Origin: a virus
Length of the DNA: 33,408 nucleotides
IMG/VR virus record: IMGVR_UViG_3300021091_000235
Span: 1-33,408 of that record
Reading direction: 5' to 3' (one strand)
Of this stretch, positions 1,097-32,219 are shown in pieces. Positions within the stretch are counted from its first letter, which is position 1. Every line of letters starts with the position of its first letter. Position numbers and translations under genes: made by a program. Below the pieces are notes generated by a model that ran no database searches, was not told where the DNA came from, and saw only the letters and a list, made by a program, of their open reading frames with translations.

Positions 1097-1109
1097 CTAA
1101 CATTGTTAG
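1097..1109 (+). repeat. 13-bp near-palindrome copy 2
   Basis: CTAACATTGTTAG between the MoxR and VWA genes, directly abutting the AGAGGA ribosome site. The 20-base stretch AACCTAACATTGTTAGAGGA (1095-1114 or close) is shared with copy 4. Confidence 0.93.
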
Positions 1110-1117
1110 AGGACAAT

Positions 1118-5558: not shown

Positions 5559-5856
5559 AACACCTGAAGCAAAAGTTAAGGACAAAATAAAAAAGATACT
5601 GAAAGACAACGGCGTGTATTACGTTATGCCGATTGGTTCGGGCTACGGCAAGGGGGGAGTGCCCGACTTTGTTTGTTGCTACAAGGGGTTCTTTATTGGT
5701 ATTGAAGCAAAGACAGTCGGCAACTTGCCTACGCTTTTGCAACATATCAACTTAACAGAAATCATAAACGCTGGTGGCGTGTGCGTAGTGATTAACGAAA
5801 ACAATTTAGATTCTATTAACGGGTGGCTAAGACTACTGGATGCTAAAGCACAATGA
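5551..5856 (+). CDS. VRR-NUC domain nuclease
   Basis: The 101-residue protein matches the stand-alone VRR-NUC fold, a small PD-(D/E)XK-type nuclease seen in many phages, related to the nuclease domain of FAN1 and expected to cut branched DNA such as Holliday junctions. The core motifs are GGVPDF (catalytic D39), GIEAKT (E52 and K54) and a glutamine (Q64) after a short gap. The start is a TTG at 5551 with GGAG at 5541-5544 upstream, overlapping the previous gene's stop. Its TGA overlaps the DNA polymerase start as ATGA, so it belongs to the replication operon. It may resolve replication or packaging intermediates. Confidence 0.87.
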   Translation: MTKTPEAKVKDKIKKILKDNGVYYVMPIGSGYGKGGVPDFVCCYKGFFIGIEAKTVGNLPTLLQHINLTEIINAGGVCVVINENNLDSINGWLRLLDAKAQ

Positions 5857-7661
5857 ACATCATCACTATAGATTTTGAAACGTACTACGACAAAGACTAC
5901 AGCTTGTCGAAGATGACTACGGAAGAATACATTAGGGACGAACGCTTTGAAGTGATTGGCGTATCAGTAAAGGTAGCTGATGCCGAGCCTGTCTGGTTCA
6001 GCGGGGGGACAGAAGAATCGCACCAGTTCCTGAAAAGCTTTAGCTTAGAGAAGCACTTGGTGCTAGCTCACAACGCGATGTTCGACGGAGCCATCCTTTC
6101 TTGGGTGTACGGAATTAAGCCAAAGGCATTCCTTGACACACTGTGCATGGGCCGAGCCTTGCATGGAACGGAAGTCGGAGGTAGCCTTGCGGTGCTAGCT
6201 TCCCATTACGGGGTTGGCAAAAAAGGCGACGAGGTGGTTCATGCACTCGGCAAACACAGACTTGATTTTGATCCTGTTGATCTTGATCGGTACGGTGCTT
6301 ATTGCTCCAACGACGTTGCTCTTACTTACGATCTGTTTCGGTTAATGAGTGAAGGCTTTCCTTGGTCGGAGCTTAAGCTTATTGATATAACCCTAAAGAT
6401 GTTTACCGACCCTGTCTTGTTACTGGATCGGCACGTACTTCTAAACATCTTAGATTCCGCTAAAAAAGCAAAAGCTTCACTGCTTGAGGCTGCGGGTTAC
6501 TCACGCGAAGACTTGATGAGTAATGACCGACTAGCTAACGTGCTGCGAGAACACGCTGTCAATCCACCAACAAAAATCAGCCCAACCACAGGCAAGGAGA
6601 CTTATGCGTTTGCGAAGAACGACGAAGAGTTTTTGGAGTTGCAAGAACATCCATCGATTGCCATACAGACTATCGTTACCGCTAGGCTTGGCGTTAAGTC
6701 TACGTTAACTGAAACAAGAACCGAACGATTGCTTGGTATTGCAAGCCGTGGCAAGCTGCCCGTACCCCTAAGATACTATGCCGCACACACAGGGCGTTGG
6801 GGCGGTGATGACAAACTGAATCTGCAAAACCTTCCAAGAGGCTCGACGCTTAAACACGCAATCATGGCGCCACCTGGGTACGTCATTATTGACTCTGACT
6901 CTTCACAGATTGAAGCCCGCACCTTGGCATGGCTTGCCGAACAGAACGACTTGGTGTCAGCTTTTGAAAAAGGCGAAGATGTTTATAGCATTATGGCCTC
7001 GGCTATCTATAGCAAACCTGTTGAAGACATAACGAAAGACGAACGGTTTGTAGGTAAGACCACGATCCTTGGTTCAGGTTACGGTATGGGCGCAGCGAAG
7101 TTCCAAAAGCAATTACAAAACTTTAGCGTAGCCATTGAGCTAAATGAAGCCAAGCGCATTATTGATACGTACAGAACGACTTACGATTGTATATCCAACC
7201 TTTGGAATCAAGCGAACCGCGCACTGGATGCCATGTATGCCGACATGAGTGAACAGCTAGGCCGAGTGGGTGTGCTTCAGGTTGAGGGGCGCAAGGGCAT
7301 ACGACTGCCAAACGGGTTGTATTTGAAGTACCCCAACTTGCGTAAGACTAACGATGGTTATGTGTACGACACAAAGAAGGGCAAAGCAATGATCCCTACC
7401 AAGATATACGGAGGCAAGCTAGTTGAGAACGTGTGCCAAGCGTTAGCTCGAATTATTATTGGTGAGCAGATGTTAATCATTGCCAAGAAGTACCGAGTAG
7501 TCATGACTGTGCATGATGCGATTGCGTGTGTAGTACCAAAATCCGAAGCTGAAACTGCTAAAGAATTTGTAGAGATATGTATGCGGTTGCGTCCTGATTG
7601 GGCTCTTGATTTGCCGTTGAACTGCGAGGCTGGATACGGCGTTACTTACGGAAGTTGTTAA
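5853..7661 (+). CDS. family A DNA polymerase with 3'-5' exonuclease
   Basis: This 602-residue protein is the phage replicative polymerase. The N-terminal DEDD exonuclease shows Exo I DFE at residues 7-9, Exo II HNAMFD (73-78) and Exo III YCSND (150-154). The polymerase domain shows motif A DSSQIEAR (catalytic D349), motif B R398-x3-K402-x7-Y410, and motif C VHDA (D555). Aligned to E. coli Pol I, R398/K402/Y410 equal R754/K758/Y766, and Leu406 (codon 7068-7070) equals residue 762. Motif C has Ala556 where HDE is usual, but the catalytic aspartate is present. It is shorter than T7 gp5 (704 aa). The ATG overlaps the VRR-NUC stop. The family and activity are clear. Confidence 0.96.
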   Translation: MNIITIDFETYYDKDYSLSKMTTEEYIRDERFEVIGVSVKVADAEPVWFSGGTEESHQFLKSFSLEKHLVLAHNAMFDGAILSWVYGIKPKAFLDTLCMGRALHGTEVGGSLAVLASHYGVGKKGDEVVHALGKHRLDFDPVDLDRYGAYCSNDVALTYDLFRLMSEGFPWSELKLIDITLKMFTDPVLLLDRHVLLNILDSAKKAKASLLEAAGYSREDLMSNDRLANVLREHAVNPPTKISPTTGKETYAFAKNDEEFLELQEHPSIAIQTIVTARLGVKSTLTETRTERLLGIASRGKLPVPLRYYAAHTGRWGGDDKLNLQNLPRGSTLKHAIMAPPGYVIIDSDSSQIEARTLAWLAEQNDLVSAFEKGEDVYSIMASAIYSKPVEDITKDERFVGKTTILGSGYGMGAAKFQKQLQNFSVAIELNEAKRIIDTYRTTYDCISNLWNQANRALDAMYADMSEQLGRVGVLQVEGRKGIRLPNGLYLKYPNLRKTNDGYVYDTKKGKAMIPTKIYGGKLVENVCQALARIIIGEQMLIIAKKYRVVMTVHDAIACVVPKSEAETAKEFVEICMRLRPDWALDLPLNCEAGYGVTYGSC

Positions 7662-11485: not shown

Positions 11486-11676
11486 CAGACGAACAGAGGT
11501 GGCTCTTAATTCATGGACGGCAAGAAGTGCCTTGGTATGAATTGATAACAGGCCCAGTAGGGGGGCAATTGTTCGACCCACTATTTGAACGGTTGAGAGA
11601 TGCGGGAAAACTTAAAGCAAATATATCTCGAATGACAGTTAGACTAAAGGAAGAAAATGAATCTATCAGAGTATGA
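11482..11676 (+). CDS. hypothetical protein, 64 aa
   Basis: A 64-residue protein with MTDEQRWLLIHGRQEVPWYE at the start and FDPLFERLRDAGKLKANISR in the middle. The order of helices and a strand (MTVRLKEEN) could be a small winged helix, but the match is weak. It has a GAGGGAG ribosome site and overlaps the helicase gene by 20 bp, so it is probably translated together with it. Confidence 0.6.
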   Translation: MTDEQRWLLIHGRQEVPWYELITGPVGGQLFDPLFERLRDAGKLKANISRMTVRLKEENESIRV

Positions 11677-13039
11677 GTGGCCCCGACCACCAGGGTTTGA
11701 ACCGTTCGCGCATCAGAGGACAACATCAGAGTTTTTAGTTACCAGACGCAAGGCGTTCTGTTTCAACGAGCAAGGTACGGGTAAGACTGCATCCGTTATC
11801 TGGGCTGTTGATTACTTGATGAAACTTGGCGTATTACGCCGTGTGCTGATTGCTTGTCCGTTGTCGGTGATGCGCTCTGCGTGGCAGGAAGATTTCTTCA
11901 AGTTTGCCATTCATCGATCCGTTGATATTGCTTACGGTACAGCAGACAAGCGCAAGAAAATTGTCAATGGTATGGCCGAGGTAATCATCATCAACTTCGA
12001 TGGGATCGGCATCGTTAAGAAGGAGATAGCCGCAGCGGGCTTTGACTTGGTTGTCATTGACGAGGCGTCAGCTTATAAAAACGTGCAGACTGAACGATGG
12101 AAAGATTTGCGCGACGTTATGAAATCAGTCAAGGGTTTGTGGATGTTGACAGGAACACCCGCCGCTCAGTCGCCTGTGGATGCTTACGGATTGGCTAAGC
12201 TCATTAACCCAAGCAACACACCTAAATTCTTTGGGCAGTTCAGAGATATGGTGATGGACAAAACATCTATGTATCGATGGATACCGAAGATCGGGGCCGA
12301 CAAGATCGTACATACATTGTTACAACCAGCTATACGATTTGAAAAGCATCAGTGCTTAGACTTACCCCCACTAACCTACATTGACCGAGAAGCTCCGTTG
12401 AGTCCACAGCAAAAGTCGTACTACAACATGCTCAAAAAGCAGATGGTGATTCAAGCGGACAACGAGGACGTAACGGCAGTCAATGCAGCGGTGCAGATAA
12501 ATAAGTTGTTGCAGATAGCGGGTGGGGCGGTATACACCGACAACAAAGAAGTGCTTGAGTTTGATGTGTCAGGCAGACTTAGCGTAGTTAAAGAAGTCAT
12601 TGAAGAGTCGTCGCACAAAACGTTGATATTTGTTCCGTTTACTCATACGATACAAATACTGAAGCAGTTCTTGGATAAGCACAACATATCAAGCGATGTG
12701 ATCAATGGCGATACATCTGTGAAGAAACGCGCTGATATTGTCAGGGAGTTTCAAAAACATACCAACCCGAAAGTGCTTATCATTCAGCCTATGGCTGCAT
12801 CACATGGGCTGACGTTAACTGCGGCTGATACTATCGTATGGTATGCGCCTGTCACCAGTGTAGAGACGTATCTGCAAGCAAACGCACGGATTGACCGACC
12901 GGGGCAAGTCAATAACATGACGGTTGTGCACATCAAAGGATCGCCTGTTGAAGAGCGGCTGTACAAATTGCTGCGAGGCAACATGAGACAACATGCAAAA
13001 ATCATCGATTTGTATAAGCAGGAGGTACAAGCTGCTTGA
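11657..13039 (+). CDS. SNF2-like superfamily 2 helicase/ATPase
   Basis: This 460-residue protein is an SF2 helicase of the SNF2 type. Motif I is NEQGTGKT at residues 37-44, motif II DEAS at 135-138, motif III LTGTPAAQ near 156-163, and the C-terminal motifs include LIFVPF, ASHGLTLTAAD and ANARIDRPGQ (motif VI). Such small SNF2-like proteins are common in phage replication modules and probably move on or remodel DNA. No nuclease or primase domain is fused to it. The ATG at 11657 has AGGAAG upstream. Its TGA at 13037-13039 lies within the -35 box of the second promoter, so the next transcription unit begins at its very end. Confidence 0.93.
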   Translation: MNLSEYEWPRPPGFEPFAHQRTTSEFLVTRRKAFCFNEQGTGKTASVIWAVDYLMKLGVLRRVLIACPLSVMRSAWQEDFFKFAIHRSVDIAYGTADKRKKIVNGMAEVIIINFDGIGIVKKEIAAAGFDLVVIDEASAYKNVQTERWKDLRDVMKSVKGLWMLTGTPAAQSPVDAYGLAKLINPSNTPKFFGQFRDMVMDKTSMYRWIPKIGADKIVHTLLQPAIRFEKHQCLDLPPLTYIDREAPLSPQQKSYYNMLKKQMVIQADNEDVTAVNAAVQINKLLQIAGGAVYTDNKEVLEFDVSGRLSVVKEVIEESSHKTLIFVPFTHTIQILKQFLDKHNISSDVINGDTSVKKRADIVREFQKHTNPKVLIIQPMAASHGLTLTAADTIVWYAPVTSVETYLQANARIDRPGQVNNMTVVHIKGSPVEERLYKLLRGNMRQHAKIIDLYKQEVQAA

Positions 13040-14638: not shown

Positions 14639-17485
14639 ATGTCCAATTTTGATTTATTGGATGCCGTGCTGCCTTCTGAAGGTCGGTACTGCATTGTGGG
14701 GATCGGCAAGTATGTAGACCAAAGGCTGTTTGATACCAAAGAAGAAGCTGAAGCTTGCATTAAAGAACTTACCAAGTCTTTCAATGTGTACTTTGGGTGC
14801 GCCAAGTTTGGCTCACTAAACAATCGCAAACACGAGAACGCTCTATATTTCAGGGCGCTATGGCTTGATATTGACTGCGGCCCTACCAAGGGTGTGCCTG
14901 ATGAAAAGGGCATCATCGCAGGATACCTAGATCAAAACATAGGGATGAGTGAGTTCAAAAGGTTTTGCAAAGAAGTTAAGTTGCCAAAACCAATCTTGGT
15001 AAATTCAGGCTACGGCATACATGCTTACTGGTTGTTGGAAGAAACACTAACTCAAACGGAATGGAAGCCATTAGCTAAAAGACTTAAGCAGCTTTGCGAG
15101 AAGCACAACTTAATCGTTGACCCCGCAGTTTTTGAAGCATCAAGAGTGCTGCGTGTTCCGGGTACTTATAACCATAAAGATAAAAATGATCTAAAACAAG
15201 CTACGGTTATCAACGAAGTATCAGATCGTATACCTGTTGCAGCTTTAGCCGAGCTTCTCGGCGCACCAGAACCAGAACCAGACGACGAGCGACCTGAGTA
15301 CATATCCGCAAGCGTGAGCCCCATGATGGAAGCTCTGCTGAAGAATAAAGTAAAACGATTCAAAACCATCATGATCAAGTCGGCGCAAGGTACTGGGTGC
15401 GCCCAACTACTGCACTGCTATCAGAACCAACAAAGCATTGGCTACAACCTGTGGAGATCGGCACTTTCAATTGCAGCATTTTGCGTTGATAAAGACACTG
15501 CCATACACAAAATATCAGAAAACTACCCCGGCTATGATCGCTATGAAACAGAAGTAAAAGTTGATGATCTGATACGAACAGGCGCTCCGCACCGCTGTAC
15601 AACATTCCATCGATGGAATCCCGGAGGTTGCAACGGTTGTATGCACAAAGGGCGTATCAATACTCCCATCATGCTTGGGGTTGAGATAGCCGAGGCCGAC
15701 ACAGACGAAGTGGAGGTGGTATCAGAAGATGGCGAAGTAACCGTTGAACGTATACCTGAGTATCCGTTTCCATTCTTCAGGGGTAAAAACGGAGGTGTGT
15801 ACAAGCGCCCTCCCGCAGACGCCGAGGAAGAAGCAACGCAGGTTTACGAGCATGATTTGTACATACATAAACGGATGATTGATCCCTCGCTTGGGGATTC
15901 GGCTGTAGTTAGGTTGCGGCTACCAAGGGATGGGTTAAAAGAGTTTGTGCTTGCAGCCGACGAAATCTTTTCCAAAGATAAGTTAAGGCAGACGTTGGCT
16001 CGGCACGGCGTGTACACCCACAAGAAACAATACGATGACTTGTCCATCTACCTTGTCGGGTCACTTAAGGCAATGCAATTTGATAAAAAGGCGGAAACAA
16101 TGCGTACACAATTTGGTTGGATGGAAGCAGACAGTAAATTTATTTTGGGCGACCGCGAGGTAACTAAGGATGGTGTCTTTTATAGCCCCCCTTCAAGCTA
16201 TACAAAAGATGTATCAGAGATCATCACTCCCGTAGGGTCGTACGAGAAATGGAAAGAAGTGTTCAATCTTTATGGTCGGCCTGGACTTGAAGGAAATGCT
16301 TTTGGTGCGTTGACTGCGTTTGGCTCACCTTTGCTGAAATTCACTGGGATGAAGGGTGCGATCATTAACTTGATTCACCAATCAGCAGGTACAGGTAAGT
16401 CTACGGTGCTTTACTTGTGCAACAGTGTGTACGGGCATCCGACTGAGCTGGGCTCTATTTGGAAAGACACATTCAATGCCAAGATCCACAGGCTCGGCGT
16501 TCTAAATAATTTACCAAACACGATTGATGAAATAACAAATACAACCCCTCAAGAGTTTTCTGATCTTGCTTACAGCATTTCGCAGGGCAGGGGTAAGAAC
16601 CGCATGAAGTCTAACGCCAACGAAGCGCGGCTGAACCTAACGAGCTGGACAGGCATTACGCTTTCATCTGCAAACGCAAGTTTTTACGAGAAGCTCTCCA
16701 CACTGAAGAACTCACCAGATGGCGAGAACATGCGCTTACTTGAGTACCACGTACACAAGTCGGATGTAATTGCTACGCAAGAAGGCAAAGATATGTTTGA
16801 CCATCAGTTACTTGAAAACTACGGTCATGCTGGTGATATTTACATCCAATACTTAGTGAACAACCTTGAAAGCGTAAAAGACCTTATCCGTAAGGTGCAA
16901 GCCAAGATTGATAAGGAAGTGCAGTTTACAAGTCGTGAGCGGTTCTGGTCGGCAGTGGCAGCTTGCAACATCACGGGTGGTCTGATTGCTAAAGAATTAG
17001 GTATCCACAACTGGGACATGATGGTGATTTATGAGTGGCTTCTTAAGACCCTTAACAATATGCGCGAAGAAATTAAACCACCGACGCTAAACCCCTTGAT
17101 GATCATTGGCGACTTCATCAACACCAACATTCAGAAGGCTTTGGTTGTGCAGGGCAAAGAAGATAAACGCACCAACATGACTGCCAACCCGACACTTATG
17201 CCAAAGGGAGAGCTGTACATACGTTACGAGCCCGATACCAAGTACCTATTTATTACGGTGAATAGCTTTAAAAAGTATTGCACAGACCAGCAAGTCAACT
17301 ACAAAGACACCCTTAAACAGCTTAAGGATCTCAATGTATACGTTGAAAGCGTAAATAAGCGCATGGGCAAAGGCACTCAACTAGATTCTCCCGGTGTAAG
17401 GGTGCTGGCGTTTGATGCGTCTAACTCTGAGTATTTGCAAATGGATTCACTAGCGAACCATGAGGATCGAGACAGTAACGTATAA
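14639..17485 (+). CDS. primase-helicase (archaeo-eukaryotic primase plus DUF927-like ATPase)
   Basis: This 948-residue protein joins two enzymes. The N-terminal AEP-type primase shows LDID (D77, D79), GYGIHAYW (H128) and RVLRVPGTYNHK (169-180). A cysteine/histidine cluster (C320, C331, C334, H336) follows, resembling a zinc finger. The C-terminal ATPase shows FGALTAFGSPLLKF, Walker A SAGTGKST at 582-589 and Walker B NTIDEI around 627-632, the pattern of DUF927 helicase-like proteins. Together they would prime and unwind at the replication fork, replacing a T7 gp4-type enzyme. The ATG at 14639 has only a weak ribosome site (ACGAG). The end overlaps the next gene by 26 bp. Confidence 0.9.
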   Translation: MSNFDLLDAVLPSEGRYCIVGIGKYVDQRLFDTKEEAEACIKELTKSFNVYFGCAKFGSLNNRKHENALYFRALWLDIDCGPTKGVPDEKGIIAGYLDQNIGMSEFKRFCKEVKLPKPILVNSGYGIHAYWLLEETLTQTEWKPLAKRLKQLCEKHNLIVDPAVFEASRVLRVPGTYNHKDKNDLKQATVINEVSDRIPVAALAELLGAPEPEPDDERPEYISASVSPMMEALLKNKVKRFKTIMIKSAQGTGCAQLLHCYQNQQSIGYNLWRSALSIAAFCVDKDTAIHKISENYPGYDRYETEVKVDDLIRTGAPHRCTTFHRWNPGGCNGCMHKGRINTPIMLGVEIAEADTDEVEVVSEDGEVTVERIPEYPFPFFRGKNGGVYKRPPADAEEEATQVYEHDLYIHKRMIDPSLGDSAVVRLRLPRDGLKEFVLAADEIFSKDKLRQTLARHGVYTHKKQYDDLSIYLVGSLKAMQFDKKAETMRTQFGWMEADSKFILGDREVTKDGVFYSPPSSYTKDVSEIITPVGSYEKWKEVFNLYGRPGLEGNAFGALTAFGSPLLKFTGMKGAIINLIHQSAGTGKSTVLYLCNSVYGHPTELGSIWKDTFNAKIHRLGVLNNLPNTIDEITNTTPQEFSDLAYSISQGRGKNRMKSNANEARLNLTSWTGITLSSANASFYEKLSTLKNSPDGENMRLLEYHVHKSDVIATQEGKDMFDHQLLENYGHAGDIYIQYLVNNLESVKDLIRKVQAKIDKEVQFTSRERFWSAVAACNITGGLIAKELGIHNWDMMVIYEWLLKTLNNMREEIKPPTLNPLMIIGDFINTNIQKALVVQGKEDKRTNMTANPTLMPKGELYIRYEPDTKYLFITVNSFKKYCTDQQVNYKDTLKQLKDLNVYVESVNKRMGKGTQLDSPGVRVLAFDASNSEYLQMDSLANHEDRDSNV

Positions 17486-17713: not shown

Positions 17714-17741
17714 AATCCCGACCCCCCGTCGGGATTTTTTT
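17714..17741 (+). terminator. intrinsic terminator between convergent gene blocks
   Basis: AATCCCGAC (17714-17722) pairs with GTCGGGATT (17728-17736) across a loop of five C, followed by a T-rich run (17735-17741). It ends + strand transcription. The other strand has no U-tract after the stem, so it should work in one direction only. The giant virion protein's stop codon is at its edge. The stretch 17655-17713 between the last + gene and this stem holds nothing else I can see. Confidence 0.92.
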
Positions 17742-20700
17742 ATTTGTCAGACGAAGTGCCATACACTTCTATCCTACGTTGGCGCTCACGCTCGGCAACT
17801 GCTTTACGTGATGGTGCAGCAGCAGGGGCAAGCAACGCTGCATTCTTTTCTGACAACCGCAGACCACGCCAAGACTCACCACGGTCTTTAGCTCTACGCT
17901 CCAACGAGTCTTGAAGCTGTTCAACATCAATCCTAAACGAAGGATACTTTTTGTTGAATGCAACGAGGTCTTTGGTAATTAGTTGGTTGTAAGCCTTAAA
18001 GTCTCGCGTGCGGTATTCACGGTCAATGTTGTCAAATAACTTCTGGCGTTCGTTCTCAATGCGTTGCTGAATACCAATAAGTTTGAACGTCACGTTTTGT
18101 GTGTTGGCAAGAAGGTCTGAACGGAACCCAATGGCCTGACCAATAAGTTCACCTGTCGTAAAGGCATCCTTGCTCATAATCTGAGCACCTTTATTGTTTT
18201 TAGCGCCTTCAGTAGCGTACTTATGTGTAAGTATAAAGTTACGTATTAATGCGGGAGACAGTTTTTCTACACCTTTTTGGTAGTCTCCGTTTCGGAAAGC
18301 CTCATATGCGTCTGCCCAATTAAGCACCATGTTTACAGCAGGGCCAGCTTTTTCAATAGCCCAAGCTTCAAGCGATTCTCTAGTGGTTTTAGTTTCTTTA
18401 ATATCGCGGAACCACAGGTCGTTAAGCTGCGTACGAGAAGCAAAATCAACACCAGTAAATGCGTTTAGTAGCCCACGTTCAATAATACTACTTAGTTTCT
18501 TGCCTCCAATTGTAACGTCACCTAATATTTCAGGTAAGAATATTGTGCGGGACCAAATTTCAAAATCAAGGTCTTTAATATCTTTTGGTTTTTCATCATC
18601 GTCGGCAGCATTCCAAGCCATGCCAAGCAAACCCATTACTACACTAAACATAGGTAAACCAGCAGCTCCAGCAAGCATCCAAGTGGTTGCCATCGTACCC
18701 CAGAATATTTTTGCAGCTTCGGCTTTTTCTGCTTTAGTTTTACCCGCAATCATTCGCTTAAAATTTTTAACAAGATACATTGTTACGTGTAACGGATACA
18801 TTTGAAACTGCAATGCAATTTTACCGCCTGGATTACGCATAATCATTGGGCGGTTGTATTCACCATAATTACCAAGTGCATCATTAGTATCTTGAACTGC
18901 TTGGTCTATGGCGTCTTTCTCAGATATATTTGGGTTTTTTCTTTTAGACAGTCGATACGAAGTTAAAAATATAATTTCACGGGAAATTCTTTCGGTTGAG
19001 TGCATCAACCCACCAAGAACAAAATTAACAGTTTTCTTTGTTTTATCTAGTGGTGAGCCAATTTTTTCCGAAGGTATGTTGTTGTAATCATATAGCGCAC
19101 GCGCATAAGTTGATTGGGTTACGTCTCTAGCTAACATAGCTTCTACAGCTTTTCGTTCTTTAGGTGAAGCATTAACAGCCGTTGAATTTACAATTGATGG
19201 CATAACATTCACTTCGTCACCTGTAGCTGTTTTTCTAGTAACTGCAAGTGAGTCCCACACTTTCATAAGCTTTGCCATTTCTGCGGCTGTAGCTCCGTAC
19301 CCATGACGAGCACCAAGTATGGGGATGCCCGTTTGCACAATGCCAATTGGTTGCAACAGTGCAGAAGATGCGCCAGACAAATAATAGATAAAAGAAAGTT
19401 TATTAGCCCAACCAGCAATAGCGTCGGCTGCATTGGGTATTCTTGGGTTAAGTGTTTCTTTAACCCGCTTTTCCATTTCCGCTACAAACGGTTCAAACTC
19501 AGGTCGATTTTGAATTGAATCTCTTGCAGAAGCCAACGTATTACGTAGTTTAGGTGCATATTTAAGCCGAGCAAGTTGCAACGACATTTTAAGCGAAGAC
19601 TCATTAAAATCCCGAAGTAAATCAGTACTAAATCCAGCATAGCCTTTACGATGAATAAACTGCTTTCTAAAAGTCTGCTCTGGCATCGTACGTAAATACA
19701 TTTGATACACAGCATCTTTCATGTCGTCACGAATGTTTTCATCCGTGAAATTAGACTCATCAATAAGCTTGAACGTACTTTTTAACAACGAACTCGGCTC
19801 AGTGGATGCTAAACGCATTGAACGGATGTCATTGCCGATTTCAAACTTCTTAATATCAAGTAGTTCATCTAACTCAGTTTTACGATCTTCTGCAAGTTTT
19901 TTGGCTACGGCATCGCGCTCAGCCATTGTGGGGAACATATAAAATTCTTTTTCTTTGTTTTTACCCGTATACACAGCAAGCCAAAAACTACCATCTCTTG
20001 TTAAAGGGAAGTATGGATATATACGCTCGCCTTTTTCATACATTTTTTTAACCGCAGCAAGCAGTTGAGTTTTGGCTTCTGGGGGTATATTTGCTTGTTC
20101 AATTTGATCGTCAAGTAGTGACGTATATAGCTCAGCCATATCGTCGTAATACTGTTTTATATCTTTATATAGCTGTTGTCCTTTAGCCCCAAGATCTTTA
20201 TACATGTCGTTTAATTTTGTATTGCTTGAATCGGTAGCTGGGTCTATTTGAGATAACGTAGCTATTTTAGTTATGTCTTCTAACTTACGACGCAACTCAG
20301 GCGATTTACTAAACTCAGTATTAATTTTTTTAGATAAGTCAGCAGCCGCACCCATGAGTTTTTGCGCCATACCACTCATTGATTGAAGCTGCTGATTGAT
20401 TTCAGCAAGTCGAGGTATTTCATCAGCCCATTGCACTAACGCATCTGTAGTAACGCCTTTAACTAAAATACTTTTGCCTTTGTAATCCATGCCTTTCCAC
20501 AAGGCACGAAGTGAATCTAAAACACCTTCCCCATTACGCAGTCTGTACAACAGTGAAGCCTGCTTAGCGACTTCTTCTGAGGTACGCGACTTAGCTAATT
20601 TTTCAATCGCTTCATCGACTTTCTTGTCAATTTCTTTTTGTTTTTTAAGTGCTTCTTGTTCTTCTGGCGTAAGTTTTTGTTTTGTCAAAGAGACTTCAAC

Positions 20701-23700
20701 AGGTTGGCGTTTACGCAGCTCTTGCTTAATTGCGGCTCCAATTTTAGCCGTACCGGTTCTGTAAGGAGTTATTTTAGTACCAGCAAGCCTGTCAGTTATG
20801 TCAAGTAAATCAACCAACGCATTGAATTGATTAGGTGCAAGCCCAAGAATTTTGCGAACAGCTTCAACAAACTTAGTGAACAGTGTCTTGTCTCGACCTG
20901 TTGAGCTGTATTTATCTGGCGTTTTTACCGACTTAAGGAATTTAACAAACGCTGGATTAGTTGTACCGTATGCGGCAAACTCTCTAAGGTTGTTAAACAC
21001 ATCAATAGTTTCGGCATTACCAAGTTCAAGCACTCTAGGGTCAATTGTGTTGTTTTCTACTGCTTCATCGTATGCTTGCTGAGCAAGCATCATTGTTTCT
21101 TGTAGTTCTTGATACCCTCGCACTAGCGGGTCTTGTGCAACACCAGGGACTAAACCCCGTGTTTCAAGCATATTCTCGGCAGTAATAATTTTACGGTCAA
21201 GCGCAGCATGTGTAATTTCATGCAGTGCATCTACGTTGTTAACACTTTGTCGATCACCAAACGAAGCACCACGTAAATAAATTGTGGGTGTACCAAACGA
21301 CGGGCCGACATACATAGCCGTAGCTACATCCCAGTTTTCACTGAGTATTTTGTTGTCGGCAATTTGTGCAGGAACAGGATCGCCTTCTTCAAGTGTAACT
21401 ATAGGTACGTTGGTAGTTGATGCACGCAACCGATTGGCCAGTGTCGTTTGTAACGGGTCGCCCGTTTTTGAAATTGCAGCTATACCTTGGGTTGCATTTG
21501 TTGCAGTTAATAGTTGATTGTTTACCGGGGCTCCACTAAGGGCGGCACTTTTGGATGGTTCAGCTTTTGCGGCAGGCTTTGCCACTTCTGTTCCTTCAGC
21601 AGGCGCTGCTTTTCTCTCTTCTTTTGCTTGCTGGGTTTTGGGGGCTTCAGTGACACTTGGTGTTTCCTTTGTTTGTATATTGTCTATTTTTATATTACTT
21701 TCAAGAAGTTTATCTACTAGCGCGTTTTCTTCTTTATATAATTTGTCGCTTTCTTTTTTTAATCGATCTTTTTCCGCATTTTGTTTTTCAGCAGCTTCTA
21801 AAAGTTTTAGACGATTGGCAGCATAATCAGCAACCTGTTTAGCCTGTTCAACATACGTACCAGAAAACGATGGTGGGGTTTCGTCCGGGACACGAATATC
21901 AGGAATTTCTGATAATTTAGCTCTAGCGTTTTTTACTTCATCTCTGCGAGCTATCACATCTTGTAGCTCAGCAAAAATTTTTGCGTTTTGAGCTACAAGA
22001 TCTTCTAAAGACTCTACTGCACCGGGTGGTGCTTCTTCTCTTCGTACAGTTGGCTCAGCAGAAAGCTCAGTGCCTGCCACTCCTGTGTCGATAGATGGTG
22101 CAGCTCCTTCGGTGGGTACTCCTCCAGAGGGTCTGCCAGAAACTGAAACGCCCTCTCCACCTCCTGCAACGGGAGGCTCAGTAACATCTTCTGCATCTGC
22201 GGCCTCCTCATCAGCGACCCGTTTTTTGGCTAACGCAATAGCTTCAGCTTTAGTGCTAACGACATTATTGTCAAGTAGTTCCCCAGCATAAGCTTGCACT
22301 CTTGGGTCATCGTCAGGTATAACCAACCCTTCACGTAGCTTTGCTTTTCTTTCTTCTTCCGCTTCGTCAGCAAGTTTTTTATCTTGTGCTTCTAGTTCAT
22401 CAACACGTTTAATAGCAATTTTTCTAGCGTCTTCTTCTTCCATTCCACGGGTCTGAACAAGCTGCTGAGTTAAAGCATTTATTTGTTGGTCTTTGGTTAG
22501 TTCCGCATCAAGCGGTACTTTAGTTTTTATTTCTGGTTCTTTACGTTGCTCAATGACATCTTTTAATTTTTTTACTTCTTCGTCAGTCGCACCTTGTCCA
22601 CGAGCAATCTGTATGGCTTCTTTAACAGATAATGTCCCACCTAACGCAGCACCAGTAAGGAATTCAAGCGTGGCAGCACCGAATACCCCACGCATTGTTG
22701 GCGTTTCAGCCAACGCCTTAATGCCTTCTTCTTCTCCTACACGTTGTAGCGCAATATTTTCTGCTAGTTTTTCTTGTCCTGCTTGAGCAAATTCTGGTGC
22801 GGCTTCTTTACCCGCTTCAGTAACAACTTTTTTAGCTCCGGCAACAACGCCTGTTTTGGGTGCTTCTTTAGCTATTTCTTTAGCTACTTCTTTAGTTGCG
22901 GCAGTTCCTGCTGCTTCTTTTGCTGCGGCTTTTGTAAGTATACGTTTAGATAATGAATCAATAAATTGTCTTTCAGCACCCGTGCGTCCAGCAAGTGCGC
23001 CAAACCCAGCACCGGCAAGAATCATGTCTAGGTTTTTGCCACCATATTCTTGAGCTTTTAACGCAACTTCTTCTATTCGTTTTTCATCCTTAATACCTGC
23101 TTCTTTAAGTGCTTTTTTAGTCTCTTCGTAAATTGTGCCTTTAACAGTACCGGCGCCCATAACAGCGCCAAGACCAAGCGCAGTAGCGCCAGCGACTGTG
23201 CCTACAGCAGCGGCAGGAGCAAAAAGTGTAGCTCCTAAAGCAGCAACAAGTGTTGGAGCAGAAGTACCTAAAGCAGAAGAAAGTAAGTCTAAAGGTGCAA
23301 CAGTAAATGCTTTAAACGCAGCCTTTACATTCTCAAGAACGCCTTTGTCTTCGGCCTCCTTCATGATCCTAGCAACTTCTTTAGAATCATTTTTAGACTG
23401 TGCTGACATCAAACCAGCTATATAATCTTCAGCACCTTTAATATTTTTTGAGGTTTCGCTGCCAGCACCAAAAGCATCCGCAATCATACGGACACCCTGC
23501 GTCACTCCCTTAGCAATATTTAAAGGTACGTCAGCAACCTGACGAAATACAGATTCAGACTCAGGTTTTGCTTTAGTTTCTGCCAGAGCAGATGGTGAAC
23601 CTATTGAACCAGCTATTACTTTTTTTACTGTTGATTGGATAATAACCGGATCTGTGCCATCAGGAAATTCAAGCATCCTACCATCAGCAAGTTGAGCGTA

Positions 23701-23709
23701 AACGGCCAT
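17740..23709 (-). CDS. giant virion protein with zincin motif, 1989 aa
   Basis: The N-terminus (VYAQLADGRMLEFPDGTDPV) is a motif I recall from phage virion proteins. Residues about 140-190 and 225-245 are Gly/Ala-rich and hydrophobic, and several long charged helical regions follow (380-700). An HEITH motif at 830-834 (21208-21222) matches the zinc-binding core of metallopeptidases. The C-terminal third contains a segment with a hydrophobic stretch near 1670-1700 (TTWMLAGAAGLPMFSVVMGL), in the style of polyvalent-protein-like domains. I infer an internal or ejection protein that enters the cell with DNA, possibly with peptidase activity. It is the last late gene, with its stop in the T-tract of the convergent terminator. 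Its ribosome site is weak. Confidence 0.85.
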   Translation of the reverse strand: MAVYAQLADGRMLEFPDGTDPVIIQSTVKKVIAGSIGSPSALAETKAKPESESVFRQVADVPLNIAKGVTQGVRMIADAFGAGSETSKNIKGAEDYIAGLMSAQSKNDSKEVARIMKEAEDKGVLENVKAAFKAFTVAPLDLLSSALGTSAPTLVAALGATLFAPAAAVGTVAGATALGLGAVMGAGTVKGTIYEETKKALKEAGIKDEKRIEEVALKAQEYGGKNLDMILAGAGFGALAGRTGAERQFIDSLSKRILTKAAAKEAAGTAATKEVAKEIAKEAPKTGVVAGAKKVVTEAGKEAAPEFAQAGQEKLAENIALQRVGEEEGIKALAETPTMRGVFGAATLEFLTGAALGGTLSVKEAIQIARGQGATDEEVKKLKDVIEQRKEPEIKTKVPLDAELTKDQQINALTQQLVQTRGMEEEDARKIAIKRVDELEAQDKKLADEAEEERKAKLREGLVIPDDDPRVQAYAGELLDNNVVSTKAEAIALAKKRVADEEAADAEDVTEPPVAGGGEGVSVSGRPSGGVPTEGAAPSIDTGVAGTELSAEPTVRREEAPPGAVESLEDLVAQNAKIFAELQDVIARRDEVKNARAKLSEIPDIRVPDETPPSFSGTYVEQAKQVADYAANRLKLLEAAEKQNAEKDRLKKESDKLYKEENALVDKLLESNIKIDNIQTKETPSVTEAPKTQQAKEERKAAPAEGTEVAKPAAKAEPSKSAALSGAPVNNQLLTATNATQGIAAISKTGDPLQTTLANRLRASTTNVPIVTLEEGDPVPAQIADNKILSENWDVATAMYVGPSFGTPTIYLRGASFGDRQSVNNVDALHEITHAALDRKIITAENMLETRGLVPGVAQDPLVRGYQELQETMMLAQQAYDEAVENNTIDPRVLELGNAETIDVFNNLREFAAYGTTNPAFVKFLKSVKTPDKYSSTGRDKTLFTKFVEAVRKILGLAPNQFNALVDLLDITDRLAGTKITPYRTGTAKIGAAIKQELRKRQPVEVSLTKQKLTPEEQEALKKQKEIDKKVDEAIEKLAKSRTSEEVAKQASLLYRLRNGEGVLDSLRALWKGMDYKGKSILVKGVTTDALVQWADEIPRLAEINQQLQSMSGMAQKLMGAAADLSKKINTEFSKSPELRRKLEDITKIATLSQIDPATDSSNTKLNDMYKDLGAKGQQLYKDIKQYYDDMAELYTSLLDDQIEQANIPPEAKTQLLAAVKKMYEKGERIYPYFPLTRDGSFWLAVYTGKNKEKEFYMFPTMAERDAVAKKLAEDRKTELDELLDIKKFEIGNDIRSMRLASTEPSSLLKSTFKLIDESNFTDENIRDDMKDAVYQMYLRTMPEQTFRKQFIHRKGYAGFSTDLLRDFNESSLKMSLQLARLKYAPKLRNTLASARDSIQNRPEFEPFVAEMEKRVKETLNPRIPNAADAIAGWANKLSFIYYLSGASSALLQPIGIVQTGIPILGARHGYGATAAEMAKLMKVWDSLAVTRKTATGDEVNVMPSIVNSTAVNASPKERKAVEAMLARDVTQSTYARALYDYNNIPSEKIGSPLDKTKKTVNFVLGGLMHSTERISREIIFLTSYRLSKRKNPNISEKDAIDQAVQDTNDALGNYGEYNRPMIMRNPGGKIALQFQMYPLHVTMYLVKNFKRMIAGKTKAEKAEAAKIFWGTMATTWMLAGAAGLPMFSVVMGLLGMAWNAADDDEKPKDIKDLDFEIWSRTIFLPEILGDVTIGGKKLSSIIERGLLNAFTGVDFASRTQLNDLWFRDIKETKTTRESLEAWAIEKAGPAVNMVLNWADAYEAFRNGDYQKGVEKLSPALIRNFILTHKYATEGAKNNKGAQIMSKDAFTTGELIGQAIGFRSDLLANTQNVTFKLIGIQQRIENERQKLFDNIDREYRTRDFKAYNQLITKDLVAFNKKYPSFRIDVEQLQDSLERRAKDRGESWRGLRLSEKNAALLAPAAAPSRKAVAERERQRRIEVYGTSSDK

Positions 23710-23714
23710 AATAT

Positions 23715-25361
23715 TTATGGAATGAGGTTACCTTTGGCATCGAATTTTAAAGTTGTATCACCATCGGAAGACGTAGCGCTTCTTTGTGGCGTAGCGCCAC
23801 TAGATGAAAACCTTGCACGTTCTCCATCTTCTATTTGTCTCTTACGCTCAGGAGTAGCTTCCATATATTCGGAGTCAAATTTTAATCTTCTTAATGCTTC
23901 AGATACATTTTTTGCGTTTGCCGTGCTAGCACGCATTTGACTTGCTGCTGCATTTACATTTCTGTACCCATAAATTAAATTTGTAGCATCTTTAAAAGCT
24001 TGATCTTTAATTAAAGCATCCGATAGCCGCTGATTTTGTGGCAATTTAGCGTTAGCTTCTTTTAGCTTAGCTTCAATAACCCTAGCCGATACTTGCAAAT
24101 CAGTTTTACCTTCACCTGCTTTCGCGGCTTCAATTTTTGCCAACTGTACTTGATGCATCAAGTTAGTACGATCTTCATACGCTTTCATACGAACTTGCAA
24201 GAGAGTGTCGGCGCTCTTAAGTCTTTCAGCTTGAAGCTCCTTAGCAGCCGCAAGTTTTGCTTCACTAAGCTCTTTTCTTTGCCGAAGCCCAGCAATTTTT
24301 TCTTCTGCTCCAACTTCTGCTGTTATGACATCTTTATCATATCTATACGCTTTTTCTAAATCAGCTTCTGCGCTGGCCACAAGTTCATTAGCACGTTTAG
24401 TGCGACCACGTTCTTCTTCAAAATCAGCAAGTGCTTGTTTGCGCTTGGCTTCTGCCATATACATAGCTGCTTTATTTTCGCGTTCTTCAGCCTTAGCACG
24501 TTCACCAGCAACGCCACCAGCTAGCTTAGTCATAAGCCCTGCTATACGCACACCTCTTAAATCCGCAGGAAGCGCAGCTAGGCCAGCAGCTATACCTTGC
24601 ATAGTATTAGCAGGTTTGCCACGAATAGCAGCAGCAGTTTCATCATCTAACCCAGCAATCCCTGTCTTGTACTTTTCATACTGCCCACGATCTTTTGTTT
24701 CGGCTTCTTCTAAACGCCGCTTTTTTTCTTTGGGGGAAAGCATAGCTCGTTCTCGTGCTTCTTTTAATGAAGCTAACCCACTACGAATATTTGTTATGCT
24801 TTCTTCAATTTCAGAGTCATCTTCGCTTTCAGGTTTAGAAGGCACGACAAAAGATGGACGATCTTCATTAAATGCACCCAAATCAGGTTGCACTAACCCG
24901 CGCCGAGCGTACCCTTCAACTCCACCACCATGAGCAAATACAATTCCACCACGCATCGCAGTAAACGCATCTTGTGGAAGTGGTAGCGTACTTACCCCCA
25001 TCGTGTCTCGCATCTGAGCATTTCTAGCTTGTTGCGCCATTTGGTCAATAAGCGCGGCTTTAACTCCGAGTTGTTTCTCTGCCGCCGCTAGCTGTTGAGC
25101 TTTTTGCGCTAACTCCATATCCTTCTGTTGAAAGATTGTTGAGTCACTTACCTTGTTATTCATAGCCTGCTGGCGTTGGTTAGCCGCACTTGAAGCGCCC
25201 CTTGCAGCTAACTGTTTACCCGCTGCACCGTCTGGCCCCGGCGTGACTTGTCCTGTTATTTGAGGAGGTGTGCCCCCTGCATAATTTTTCAACACCCCCC
25301 CAGACATCTTAGACATTGCTGCCTGAACTTGGGGTCCGTCAGGTGGAAATGGGATTGGCAT
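23715..25361 (-). CDS. coiled-coil probable internal virion protein
   Basis: This 548-residue protein is dominated by long charged helices (for example ENKAAMYMAEAKRKQALADF and KIAGLRQRKELSEAKLAAAK), likely coiled coil. Near residues 137-155 it carries RGGIVFAHGGGVEGYARRG, a glycine-rich phrase related to ones in the two neighbouring virion proteins. The N-terminus is Pro/Gly rich. It lies between a polyglutamine virion protein and the giant protein, in a tightly packed late operon (5 and 9 bp gaps). I infer a structural or ejected protein. No enzyme motif is seen. Confidence 0.78.
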   Translation of the reverse strand: MPIPFPPDGPQVQAAMSKMSGGVLKNYAGGTPPQITGQVTPGPDGAAGKQLAARGASSAANQRQQAMNNKVSDSTIFQQKDMELAQKAQQLAAAEKQLGVKAALIDQMAQQARNAQMRDTMGVSTLPLPQDAFTAMRGGIVFAHGGGVEGYARRGLVQPDLGAFNEDRPSFVVPSKPESEDDSEIEESITNIRSGLASLKEARERAMLSPKEKKRRLEEAETKDRGQYEKYKTGIAGLDDETAAAIRGKPANTMQGIAAGLAALPADLRGVRIAGLMTKLAGGVAGERAKAEERENKAAMYMAEAKRKQALADFEEERGRTKRANELVASAEADLEKAYRYDKDVITAEVGAEEKIAGLRQRKELSEAKLAAAKELQAERLKSADTLLQVRMKAYEDRTNLMHQVQLAKIEAAKAGEGKTDLQVSARVIEAKLKEANAKLPQNQRLSDALIKDQAFKDATNLIYGYRNVNAAASQMRASTANAKNVSEALRRLKFDSEYMEATPERKRQIEDGERARFSSSGATPQRSATSSDGDTTLKFDAKGNLIP

Positions 25362-25370
25362 TTTTACCCC

Positions 25371-27398
<2,028 letters not shown>

Positions 27399-29494: not shown

Positions 29495-30129
29495 TCAATC
29501 CCCGAAACAAAAGTAGCAGTCACAATGACTGATGGTATCGCAGGGCGCGTCGGAGAGGAAGGGGCAGTGTAGTGTTCAATGTAGGCATTAACATTAGAAG
29601 GACGCCAGAACAGTTGCACATAGCTGTTAACCGTAAACGAATTGACATAGTTGGCGCTAGCCACTGTGTGATATGGATCGCCCACTGCCTTTCTTGGGGC
29701 CAAACCAAAACGCCTATTAGAGTCGGCAATATCAGTTCCGTTTTTTCTAAACCAAATGTCTACGTCCTGTGAGGCAGCGTCATAGTTTGCTAGCACTATG
29801 CTGTATTGAATATTGTATATCCCCGTATACCCAAACGTAATTTGGCTACTACTTTCAACAGACACACCCGTGGATAGTGAGGTGTTATTTAGTGTAACCG
29901 TATTAGCTGTGGTTGTTAAAGCTGCTATTTGATCGGTTGTGTCAAAAAAAGACCCCAGCGGAAGTTGTACGTACTGCCCACCATAGTTACCAAATAACGC
30001 AAGTAAATTATTGTTAAGCCTGTTGAAGTACAAGCGCAAGACGTTGTTAAACTGTTCTTGATAGCGCGAGTCGTACTGCCCCGGTGCCAGCGGCAGATTA
30101 GGCGAAGCAGGGTGCTCAATAAGACTCAT
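29491..30129 (-). CDS. structural protein with C1q/TNF-like jelly roll
   Basis: The 212-residue protein starts MSLIEHPASPNLPLAPGQYD with a short helical segment (YQEQFNNVLRLYFNRLNNNL) that may trimerise it, followed by a beta-rich part. The phrases SQITFGYTGIYNIQYSIVLA and YVNSFTVNSYVQLFWRPSNV are typical of C1q/TNF-like jelly-roll domains used in phage tail fibres and head decorations. I therefore infer an exposed trimeric particle protein. It is coupled by ATGA overlap to the large structural protein upstream. Confidence 0.75.
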   Translation of the reverse strand: MSLIEHPASPNLPLAPGQYDSRYQEQFNNVLRLYFNRLNNNLLALFGNYGGQYVQLPLGSFFDTTDQIAALTTTANTVTLNNTSLSTGVSVESSSQITFGYTGIYNIQYSIVLANYDAASQDVDIWFRKNGTDIADSNRRFGLAPRKAVGDPYHTVASANYVNSFTVNSYVQLFWRPSNVNAYIEHYTAPSSPTRPAIPSVIVTATFVSGIE

Positions 30130-32219
30130 CGACGACCGTCCGGTCTAATGTCAATACGTGGTGCGCCAAGCTGCCAAGTTGTACCCAAGCCATCCGAAGC
30201 AATCTTAATAATCATCTGCCGCCCACGGATTCGGGTGTAAACAATATTGGTAAATTGCTCAATCGTAACCGTCGATGTACGGGCAACTGCTTTAGAAGCC
30301 TCGGTGTTAAACCCAGACCCCGAACCATTCATGCCGTACATGGTCATCGTGACTTGAGGCGTACCCGCAGTTGACCCTTGGAATGTCAAATCCGGCACCA
30401 TACGCCATACAAACCCAAAGTTTTGACCATCTTCAATATCAAATTCGGCAGACTCAATATAAGCTTCAATAGCCGTGGGAGTACTTGTCTGGTTGTCGTC
30501 AATACCATTTTCATGATTGACTAAATTATTACTATAAGTTGCAGCTACAGGGAAAGCACGCAACCCTGAATCAATCCAAGCAGTACGCGCTAGTGAGCCG
30601 TAGTACCAAATGTCTTCTGCATAATTGTAAATTACATAAGAATCAATTGCTGTAACATCAGCCGAACAATAAAACCACCATATTTCATTAAACCCTTCAT
30701 TAGTACCAGCAAACACCTGTTGAGCTTGATCTAAATTAATATTGCCAAATATATGACGACGAAGATCACAACGAAGCGTTTGTACGCGCCCGTCATAAAG
30801 ATAAAACTTATCAACGCCCATCCAGTAAATACGCCCCGATGCAACTGCCGCAGCATTTTGGCTTATAATTGATATGTTATCTCCAACAAGTTGAGAAGAC
30901 CAAACAATCGGTGCGCCCACATATTGAATAGAATATAAAGAAGAATTTGTCCACACTATAATTTCTTGGCGGGTTTGTAGAACTGTAATAATTTCAGAAC
31001 CGCGTGATAGCCGAACAGAACCTGCTTGATTAAGCGAAGAAGGCACCCAATCCACAACTGACTCTTGATTGCCCCAGCGAATAAGCATAGGATCAAGAGT
31101 TGCGCTACCATACTCCGTTGTGCCAAACAATAATACAAATCTAGAAATATCAGATACAAGTATGTAATTTTGTAGAGTTGGCACATCCACCAGAACACTT
31201 ACACTGTGAGTGCCAGATTGAGAACCTGATGTATTAATAATTGTGCCTGTTGGAGTAGCTGAAAGATTAGCAATAACACCATCAACATTACGTAGGTAAA
31301 AAGTAGTGCCTGTAGAAAGCCCAGTAGGTAACGCACCTGTCGTGGAAAACTGCACGGCTGTACCTTCAGCAAGTATTACAGAGAACGTAGCCACACACGG
31401 AGTAGCAATAGTAAAAGTTACTGCGCCTCCAAGAGTATTGACATTTACCCCTCTAGTAGCAACACCAGTTGACGCTTCCCAATAATATAACCCACCACCA
31501 CGAGGCCCAAAAACAAGATCTTCTCCCCAATTATTGTGAGACCATAAGCGCAATGAATCTGTTTGTGACGAACCTGAACCCCATGAACCAAAACCATAAA
31601 ATCCAGATCCCCAACCTGTAAGCGGAACTTGGATTGCTGGACCTGTATTTATTTGGTATGTGGCTACAACAGCCGCACCACCTCCTGGAGAAGCAGCTAT
31701 GGCTGTGGCATTAGGTGTAACAGAGATAGTGATGGAGTAAGAATTATCGTTAATTTTTGTAAGTTGGAATTCTGTATTAAGCACTGCTGCCGTAACGTTT
31801 GTACCCCCACCACCAATAGCAACTGCGCCACTAAACGTAACAAAATCGCCTGTTATAGCACCATGACTTGTGTCTGTCACCGTTACGGTAGTGGACGCAG
31901 TGAGAGCAAACGGGTTATTGTTGATCGTTGAAGTTGCACGAATAGGCGTAATATCGTAATAAACGCCATCTTGTTCAATATAATATTTAAGGTTTGTACC
32001 TAAGCCAATTAAGTTTGTAAAACTTAAATTAACCCAGTTCCACAAGGCTCGACAAACACCTAAGAACACATTCGCAGAAATACGTGTCCAGCCCCCAATT
32101 TTTTCAGGAGTGCCTTGGCGAAATCGTACTTTATCGGATATGTACCAACCGGTTTCATTGGTATAGCGGGTATTTTCTTTATTAACCCCCGGCTTTAGTA
32201 ATATCTTCTTGAGTGGCAT
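30126..32219 (-). CDS. large phage structural protein (possible stabilisation/tail protein)
   Basis: This 697-residue protein begins MPLKKILLKPGVNKENTRYT and then WYISDKVRFRQGTPEKIGGW, a motif I associate with podovirus proteins annotated as packaged-DNA stabilisation or tail proteins related to P22 gp10. The assignment is from memory and uncertain. The rest is beta-rich, with Thr/Ser/Gly-rich regions (FALTASTTVTVTDTSHGAIT) and repeated aromatic motifs (GWGSGFYGFGSWGSGSSQ, then SHNNWGEDLVFG). No signal peptide or enzyme motif is seen. It begins one base inside the endolysin stop (TAATG). Confidence 0.65.
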   Translation of the reverse strand: MPLKKILLKPGVNKENTRYTNETGWYISDKVRFRQGTPEKIGGWTRISANVFLGVCRALWNWVNLSFTNLIGLGTNLKYYIEQDGVYYDITPIRATSTINNNPFALTASTTVTVTDTSHGAITGDFVTFSGAVAIGGGGTNVTAAVLNTEFQLTKINDNSYSITISVTPNATAIAASPGGGAAVVATYQINTGPAIQVPLTGWGSGFYGFGSWGSGSSQTDSLRLWSHNNWGEDLVFGPRGGGLYYWEASTGVATRGVNVNTLGGAVTFTIATPCVATFSVILAEGTAVQFSTTGALPTGLSTGTTFYLRNVDGVIANLSATPTGTIINTSGSQSGTHSVSVLVDVPTLQNYILVSDISRFVLLFGTTEYGSATLDPMLIRWGNQESVVDWVPSSLNQAGSVRLSRGSEIITVLQTRQEIIVWTNSSLYSIQYVGAPIVWSSQLVGDNISIISQNAAAVASGRIYWMGVDKFYLYDGRVQTLRCDLRRHIFGNINLDQAQQVFAGTNEGFNEIWWFYCSADVTAIDSYVIYNYAEDIWYYGSLARTAWIDSGLRAFPVAATYSNNLVNHENGIDDNQTSTPTAIEAYIESAEFDIEDGQNFGFVWRMVPDLTFQGSTAGTPQVTMTMYGMNGSGSGFNTEASKAVARTSTVTIEQFTNIVYTRIRGRQMIIKIASDGLGTTWQLGAPRIDIRPDGRR

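Follow-up and report, generated by a model that had tools for sequence, protein, structure and literature searches.

Zincin-like metallopeptidases (MPTases) are, according to Iyer et al. 2017 (PMC5512222; cited here, like the other papers below, from its accessible passages), the commonest domain of polyvalent proteins and form 12 clades. The same authors found a HEXXH region in the virion RNA polymerase (vRNAP) of phage N4 (amino acids 2130-2448), described HExxH together with a Glu on a helix, and proposed self-processing or host targets. The N4 assignment is repeated in a 2021 review (PMC8472413), and a 2025 preprint notes the HExxH in the C1 domain (PMC12633501). That preprint was the only item that a search of the accessible open literature for phage ejection proteins together with zincins returned. 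Further searches of this open literature, subscription papers excluded, gave no paper whose listing or accessible passages place a zincin in a protein of the phiKMV/PhiM1 type. By word search, zinc, protease and peptidase are absent from the accessible text of an ejection-protein review (PMC8954989) and of the DEV preprint (PMC10925440), and phiKMV and 'internal core protein' from that of Iyer et al. 2017. Here we describe a virus record of 33.4 kb (IMGVR_UViG_3300021091_000235; 33,408 nt, the whole of which we call the window) that encodes a giant protein with the motif HEITH. We show how its HEITH-bearing domain compares with these systems. The protein probably carries a zincin metallopeptidase and belongs to the polyvalent, probably ejected, virion proteins of the class described by Iyer et al. 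2017.

The giant open reading frame (ORF) reads, from N to C terminus, as an N-terminal block, a linker, the zincin, an LPD39-like region and a PLxRFG C-terminus:

17740..23709, minus strand: ORF of 1989 residues with an ATG start, polyvalent-type giant protein
22420..23709, minus strand: N-terminal block, residues 1-430, ~75% identical to relatives L002/L003 across 339-350 residues
21508..22419, minus strand: low-constraint linker, residues 431-734, where the mosaic switches parent
20698..21507, minus strand: predicted zincin metallopeptidase-fold domain, residues 735-1004, from an AlphaFold2 model and profile and fold matches
21208..21222, minus strand: HEITH, residues 830-834, two predicted zinc ligands and the general base, on model helix 102-126
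20980..20982, minus strand: E910, predicted third zinc ligand, on a second helix (model residues 185-194)
20053..20430, minus strand: LPD39-like region, residues 1094-1219 (Pfam PF18858, E 0.00019)
17842..20016, minus strand: PLxRFG domain, residues 1232-1956 (NCBIfam NF032893, E 8.8e-120)

The PLxRFG assignment is firm, at 401.2 bits against a curated cut-off of 100, and residues 1219-1956 also match the PHROG family 'DarB-like antirestriction' (E 6.9e-66). PF18858 reached 21.6 bits against a gathering cut-off of 27, hence the name LPD39-like only. The N-terminal block contains a hydrophobic segment (residues 151-184). Scans of the protein against Pfam, PHROG and NCBIfam matched no RNA polymerase domain and no radical-SAM domain, and no named Pfam family was found for the zincin domain alone. 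What places this domain among the MPTases of polyvalent proteins is its position on the same chain as PLxRFG and LPD39-like regions and its homology to the N4 vRNAP domain, the founder of that class.

The HEITH motif and the predicted fold

The original prediction, made from the sequence of the window, placed HEITH at 21208-21222, residues 830-834 of a 1989-residue minus-strand ORF, and this placement is correct (context NNVDALHEITHAALDRK). It read the motif as a zincin site, the points to check being conservation of the histidines, the fold and a third zinc ligand. The giant protein has only 7 histidines, and 20,000 residue shuffles give P = 0.0016 for any HExxH. In a family alignment of 81 rows (64 representatives at <90% identity), H830, E831 and H834 are each present in 63/64 representatives, so the histidines are conserved, and the candidate third ligand E910 is present in all 64. 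The single exception to the motif, L049, has its own HEVMH just beyond the aligned stretch. Rows L067-L119 were retrieved by patterns containing the first H or E and are not motif-blind. When only rows retrieved through the N-terminal block are counted, H/E/H is present in 31/32 (the exception again being L049) and E910 in 32/32. The four residues are also among the invariant positions of an eight-sequence alignment. Five named phage proteins and the first two IMG/VR relatives carry one HExxH each at the same place (7/7; HELTH, HELIH, HEAIH, HEAVH, HEITH, HELLH and HELLH). L067 and L068, the closest zincin relatives (74%), have HESAH in place of HEITH.

A bare HExxH is insufficient, as T7 gp16 shows with a HERLH at residue 559 that comes without any profile match to the zincin; the Glu and the fold were therefore put to the test as well. 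AlphaFold2 modelling of residues 724-1008 with 61 sequences (the window and 60 IMG/VR stretches) gave a mean pLDDT (predicted local distance difference test) of 86.2 and a pTM (predicted template modelling score) of 0.81. The elements of the model run from helices through strands 46-50, 75-78 and 86-90 to the HEITH helix (102-126), more helices and the E910 helix (185-194). This is the zincin layout, with the HExxH helix behind a three-stranded sheet, and both the expected fold and a candidate third ligand were found. Neither of the two outcomes that would have refuted the original prediction, a fold other than a zincin or histidines lacking in relatives, was observed.

The PDB evidence for the fold is that of profiles and of a second-look aligner, and predicted viral structures support it. 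VIA-align 2 matched the model to the PhiM1 ejectosome protein 8vb2_A (Z 9.5, 148 residues, 3.4 Å) and to N4 vRNAP residues 2124-2364 (9pnt, Z 9.4, 191 residues, 3.8 Å; 9pnr, Z 9.3), followed by a lethal-factor metallopeptidase at Z 5.1. Foldseek against predicted viral structures gave 17 matches, including a phiKMV-type core protein, internal protein D and an N4-like RNA polymerase. The domain almost certainly has the zincin fold. Judged by alignment and model, HEITH is not a chance match and is a predicted zincin site with a conserved third-ligand Glu.

Kinship with ejectosome proteins, distribution and gene neighbourhood

Searching 50,697 phage records with the domain by tblastn gave 64 at E <= 0.01, mostly internal core proteins of the phiKMV type, and the family profile found the PDB chains 9sfn_G (1.3e-34), 8vb2_A (2.7e-13) and 23sg_S (1.2e-6). 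By hhalign, the domain matches N4 vRNAP 2125-2376 at 96.5% and PhiM1 269-528 at 97.0%, whereas the controls gave 0.2% (T7 gp16 transglycosylase domain) and 0.07% (ejectosome C-termini). Residues 415-563 of phiKMV gp37 match the vRNAP PHROG (2.5e-17), and tblastn with the phiKMV domain gave 146 records at E <= 0.001; a DarB-like protein from Serratia phage Parlo (4e-7) is among them, as are N4-like RNA polymerases (5e-8).

For the C-terminal block, kinship with these proteins is no more than possible. Its hhalign value against the hub of T7 gp16, phiKMV gp37 and PhiM1 rose from 18.5% to 32.1% when sequences were added, the alignment centring on a common QF-x-x-F stretch, and Foldseek of the giant protein's C-terminus against PDB gave no match at E <= 0.001, an absence that is not evidence there. 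In Xanthomonas phage S3 (L123:2728-7633), the annotation divides a gp16-type ejection protein between two ORFs that overlap in different frames, the first stopping ~250 residues past the zincin and the next holding the C-terminal hub; the cause may be an error in sequencing, a frameshift or a split that is natural.

A motif-blind search, for which the queries were just the N-terminal block of the window protein (residues 47-407) and of two relatives, returned 58 loci from 2.9 million viral contigs. HExxH is present in 38/38 proteins complete at the 3' end. Another 20 proteins are cut by the contig end, 11 with HExxH and 9 without. All 9 of the latter are of <=883 residues, and the first HExxH in the 33 complete distinct proteins stands at residue 827 or later; most of these fragments therefore stop ahead of the motif. 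At 90% identity, the 33 distinct complete proteins all have HExxH (33/33), against 0.30 expected by shuffling. A higher count, 72/72 long PLxRFG ORFs with HExxH, is biased, since zincin patterns had served to retrieve many of them, and we do not rely on it.

Among these 33 proteins, 25 match the window-type zincin profile and 8 have HExxH in other contexts (L016, L020, L027, L028, L029, L042, L051 and L059). L027 matches the Pfam metallopeptidase families ATLF (8.2e-6) and M90 (3.8e-4), both under the curated cut-offs; the remaining seven have no accepted zincin family match and are zincin-like by motif and surroundings. The PLxRFG C-terminus is found in 23/25 window-type proteins versus 1/8 of the other type (only L028). 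In these sequences, the N-terminal block is thus always accompanied by a zincin-like motif, and the zincin type tracks the C-terminal block. One relative, L022, has a window-type zincin, a second HExxH and an ART-PolyVal ADP-ribosyltransferase in one chain (a 2576-residue ORF). No relative was found in bacterial and archaeal genomes, either by the N-terminal block or by the zincin, and plasmids gave no match to the zincin domain.

The window protein is, by sequence comparison, a mosaic of two parentages. L002/L003 are the closest relatives of residues 1-430 and of part of the linker (75%, and 93% over 157 residues). For the zincin, LPD-like and PLxRFG parts, the closest are instead L067/L068 (74%, 59%, and 78% to L068), and identity to L002/L003, where these match, is only 28-34%. 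Rough estimates of the ratio of nonsynonymous to synonymous substitution (dN/dS) from single pairs against L068 by the Nei-Gojobori method are 0.17 for the zincin, 0.18 for PLxRFG and 0.69 for the linker. At this resolution, the zincin domain appears to be under purifying selection.

The giant gene shares its strand with a block of virion structural genes, and a replication block lies on the opposite strand:

23715..25361, minus strand: 548-residue gene product, directly upstream of the giant gene, candidate partner ejection protein
25371..27398, minus strand: 675-residue gene product, virion structural PHROG (phrog_6121, E 1.3e-15), C-terminal Peptidase_S74
30126..32219, minus strand: 697-residue gene product, PHROG virion structural protein (phrog_3287, E 9.1e-57)
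5853-7661, 11657-13039, 14639-17485 and 1103-2308, plus strand, opposite to the virion block: replication block

In 7/58 of the loci selected by the N-terminal block, the giant gene has homologues of the 548- and 675-residue genes immediately upstream. The replication block contains a family A DNA polymerase, a SNF2-type helicase, a DUF927 primase/helicase and an HNH endonuclease, and Rfam and tRNA scans of the window found nothing. The window (25371-27398) and Parlo (L126:3152-4408) both have a gene of the Peptidase_S74 type (self-cleaving chaperone) upstream of the zincin/PLxRFG giant, at a distance of a few genes; in the window, the protein with this domain matches a head/packaging PHROG and not a tail spike. 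A TTGCTG hexamer repeat (26838-26900) gives the 675-residue protein a poly-glutamine run, and in L002 a virion-type gene nearby encodes a long peptide of TG repeats.

Proposed role of the zincin and comparison with known systems

The explanation that we find best overall, and on balance favour, is an active zincin in a packaged and ejected polyvalent protein of the DarB/vRNAP type, which would cleave after ejection. Its parts differ in strength. The giant protein very probably travels in the particle and enters the host by ejection. The original prediction also took it for a probably ejected protein, and its nearest characterised relatives (N4 vRNAP and the PhiM1 and phiKMV ejectosome proteins) are packaged and ejected; for the window protein itself, packaging and the status of virion protein are judged from neighbours and homologues. 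The domain, which would bind zinc and catalyse, is probably an active peptidase by its conserved residues. By analogy with these relatives, we lean towards action after ejection; an ejected phage protein as its substrate is a tentative choice. In this model, the zincin would ride folded and silent in the head and, once ejected, cleave most likely the ejected proteins themselves, with host proteins as second choice. Such cleavage could cut the giant chain at flexible linkers or dismantle a transient channel.

The domain might do something other than proteolysis. The accessible passages of the PhiM1 paper assign Asp268-Asp528 as endolysin/exotransglycosidase-like through BLASTP and DALI (PMC11440229), the names 'peptidoglycan lytic exotransglycosylase' and 'with endolysin domain' are attached to it in several phage records, and peptidoglycan was also among the targets first proposed for the window protein. 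A peptidoglycan-degrading domain is nevertheless very unlikely. Pfam SLT, found in the positive controls T7 gp16 (15-127) and YIMV22061 (which has SLT and zincin), is absent from the window protein and from the phiKMV, phiNV3, VAC_51 and PhiM1 proteins. In phrog_342 ('with endolysin domain'), the matches to phiKMV and PhiM1 do not begin until profile positions 168 and 192, which should be beyond the part expected for the T7 transglycosylase, and the hhalign value for that domain, given above, marks the two as unrelated; peptidoglycan action is thus unsupported. We read the endolysin labels as transferred from T7 gp16, and alignment and model suggest that the PhiM1 stretch so labelled is a zincin, a metallopeptidase fold. 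The words protease, peptidase and metal are absent from the accessible text of the PhiM1 paper, where zinc appears only for nanoparticles. Less likely still is a HExxH oxygenase, which HExxH alone cannot separate from a peptidase. Radical-SAM-associated proteins with HExxH are mentioned in the N4 preprint, and one HExxH oxygenase is among the fold matches at Z 2.4, yet the phage domains (Z 9.4-9.5) and the metallopeptidase (5.1) score well above it, and the window protein has no radical-SAM match. A structural or regulatory zinc site, catalytically idle and stabilising the folded domain for packaging, would fit with the requirement of the region for N4 encapsidation and with the lack of any reported activity in the accessible literature passages. 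We consider it quite unlikely. E831 is the general base and not a ligand and is conserved all the same (the one exception among the rows lies at an alignment edge), so catalysis is favoured over a structural metal; the motif is also retained when another zincin type is swapped in.

For a peptidase, the remaining alternatives concern its time of action and its target. A maturation protease would cut its own chain or other proteins of the virion by the time that packaging ends; P1 DdrB, for which this role has been proposed, has such a domain and is processed before packaging (PMC5512222). N4 vRNAP, however, is packaged unprocessed (PMC5512222), and the PhiM1 chain in the mature-particle model has 1103 residues with matches flanking both sides of the zincin (289-506 and 555-1191). 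Because these relatives are packaged uncut, the case for post-ejection action is stronger and that for maturation weaker. Cleavage of virion partners during maturation, part of the original prediction, is accordingly disfavoured, and we hold a maturation protease to be improbable. An effector that cleaves host proteins after ejection (e.g. a restriction, stress or transcription factor), with the remainder of the giant protein as delivery vehicle, has more in its favour. Host targets are one option proposed by Iyer et al. 2017, the zincin type is exchangeable (8/33 N-terminal-selected proteins have a different zincin-like domain), and the PLxRFG part matches the DarB-like antirestriction family. 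ART-PolyVal is present in 2/7 Pfam-scanned relatives (L020 and L022), resembling an effector repertoire. On the other side, the zincin type follows the C-terminal block in the proportions given above, which fits a partner in the same protein as well as linkage. We regard the effector as possible, if rather unlikely.

Returning to an active zincin that acts after ejection, the tracking of the C-terminal block by zincin type would fit cleavage inside the ejected protein or its partners, and linkage explains it equally. Several observations weigh against this reading. Full-length N4 vRNAP transcribes in vitro, if at a lower level than its polymerase domain alone (PMC12633501), which means that N4 does not strictly require self-cleavage. 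The accessible part of the literature surveyed gives no substrate for any member of this zincin clade. Foldseek of the zincin model against PDB returned zero matches at E <= 0.001, although such an absence is not in itself evidence, and no capsid, portal or terminase gene was identified in the window.

Taken further, the DNA-ejection machine of podophages could commonly include a zincin protease as a catalytic part that has been overlooked, one that phiKMV-type ejectosome proteins, N4-type vRNAPs and DarB-like giants have in common and that endolysin labels conceal. Silent in the head, the zincin would cut the ejection proteins once ejected, releasing payload domains and dismantling the channel. 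This is speculation to which we give only a small chance; if true, it would answer how the ejectosome is switched off and how the host membrane is not left open. More generally, the domain bears on what ejected proteins do, and on how the ejectosome is dismantled, once DNA has entered.

Compared with known systems, the domain is closest to those of N4, PhiM1 and phiKMV. N4 vRNAP (gp50) is likewise a giant protein, and its C1 domain (2124-2375) is the same domain by profile and fold, with HELVH at 2228-2232 and, read from the alignment, E2310 as the matching Glu. Unlike N4 vRNAP, the window protein has no matched RNA polymerase domain, and its C-terminal block is of the PLxRFG type, without a match to N4 C2 by hhalign (0.2%). 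The tetrameric ejection protein of PhiM1 (PDB 8vb2; PhiM1_43) has the same zincin, with HEAAH at 385-389 and E449 as read from the alignment, as do phiKMV gp37 and the 9sfn internal virion protein (HEAVH 423-427 in gp37). The rest of the chain differs, the PLxRFG block being at most a possible relative of the PhiM1/phiKMV C-terminal hub (hhalign 32%; Z 4.9 across 247 residues). Among the DarB-like/PLxRFG proteins, gp81 of Serratia phage Parlo (3764 residues) has, as in the window, a window-type zincin (E 2.7e-33) and a PLxRFG C-terminus in one chain; it differs in being almost double in length and in a second HExxH at 2557. What began as a remark on a motif is now a modelled domain that has homologues of solved structure and a predicted third ligand. 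The zincin fold, third ligand and conserved histidines of the original prediction stand, its peptidoglycan action finds no support, its in-particle cleavage is disfavoured, and the domain class already described went unmentioned in it. The class is known, the MPTase of polyvalent proteins; new here are this member and the zincin reading of the ejectosome 'endolysin' domain.
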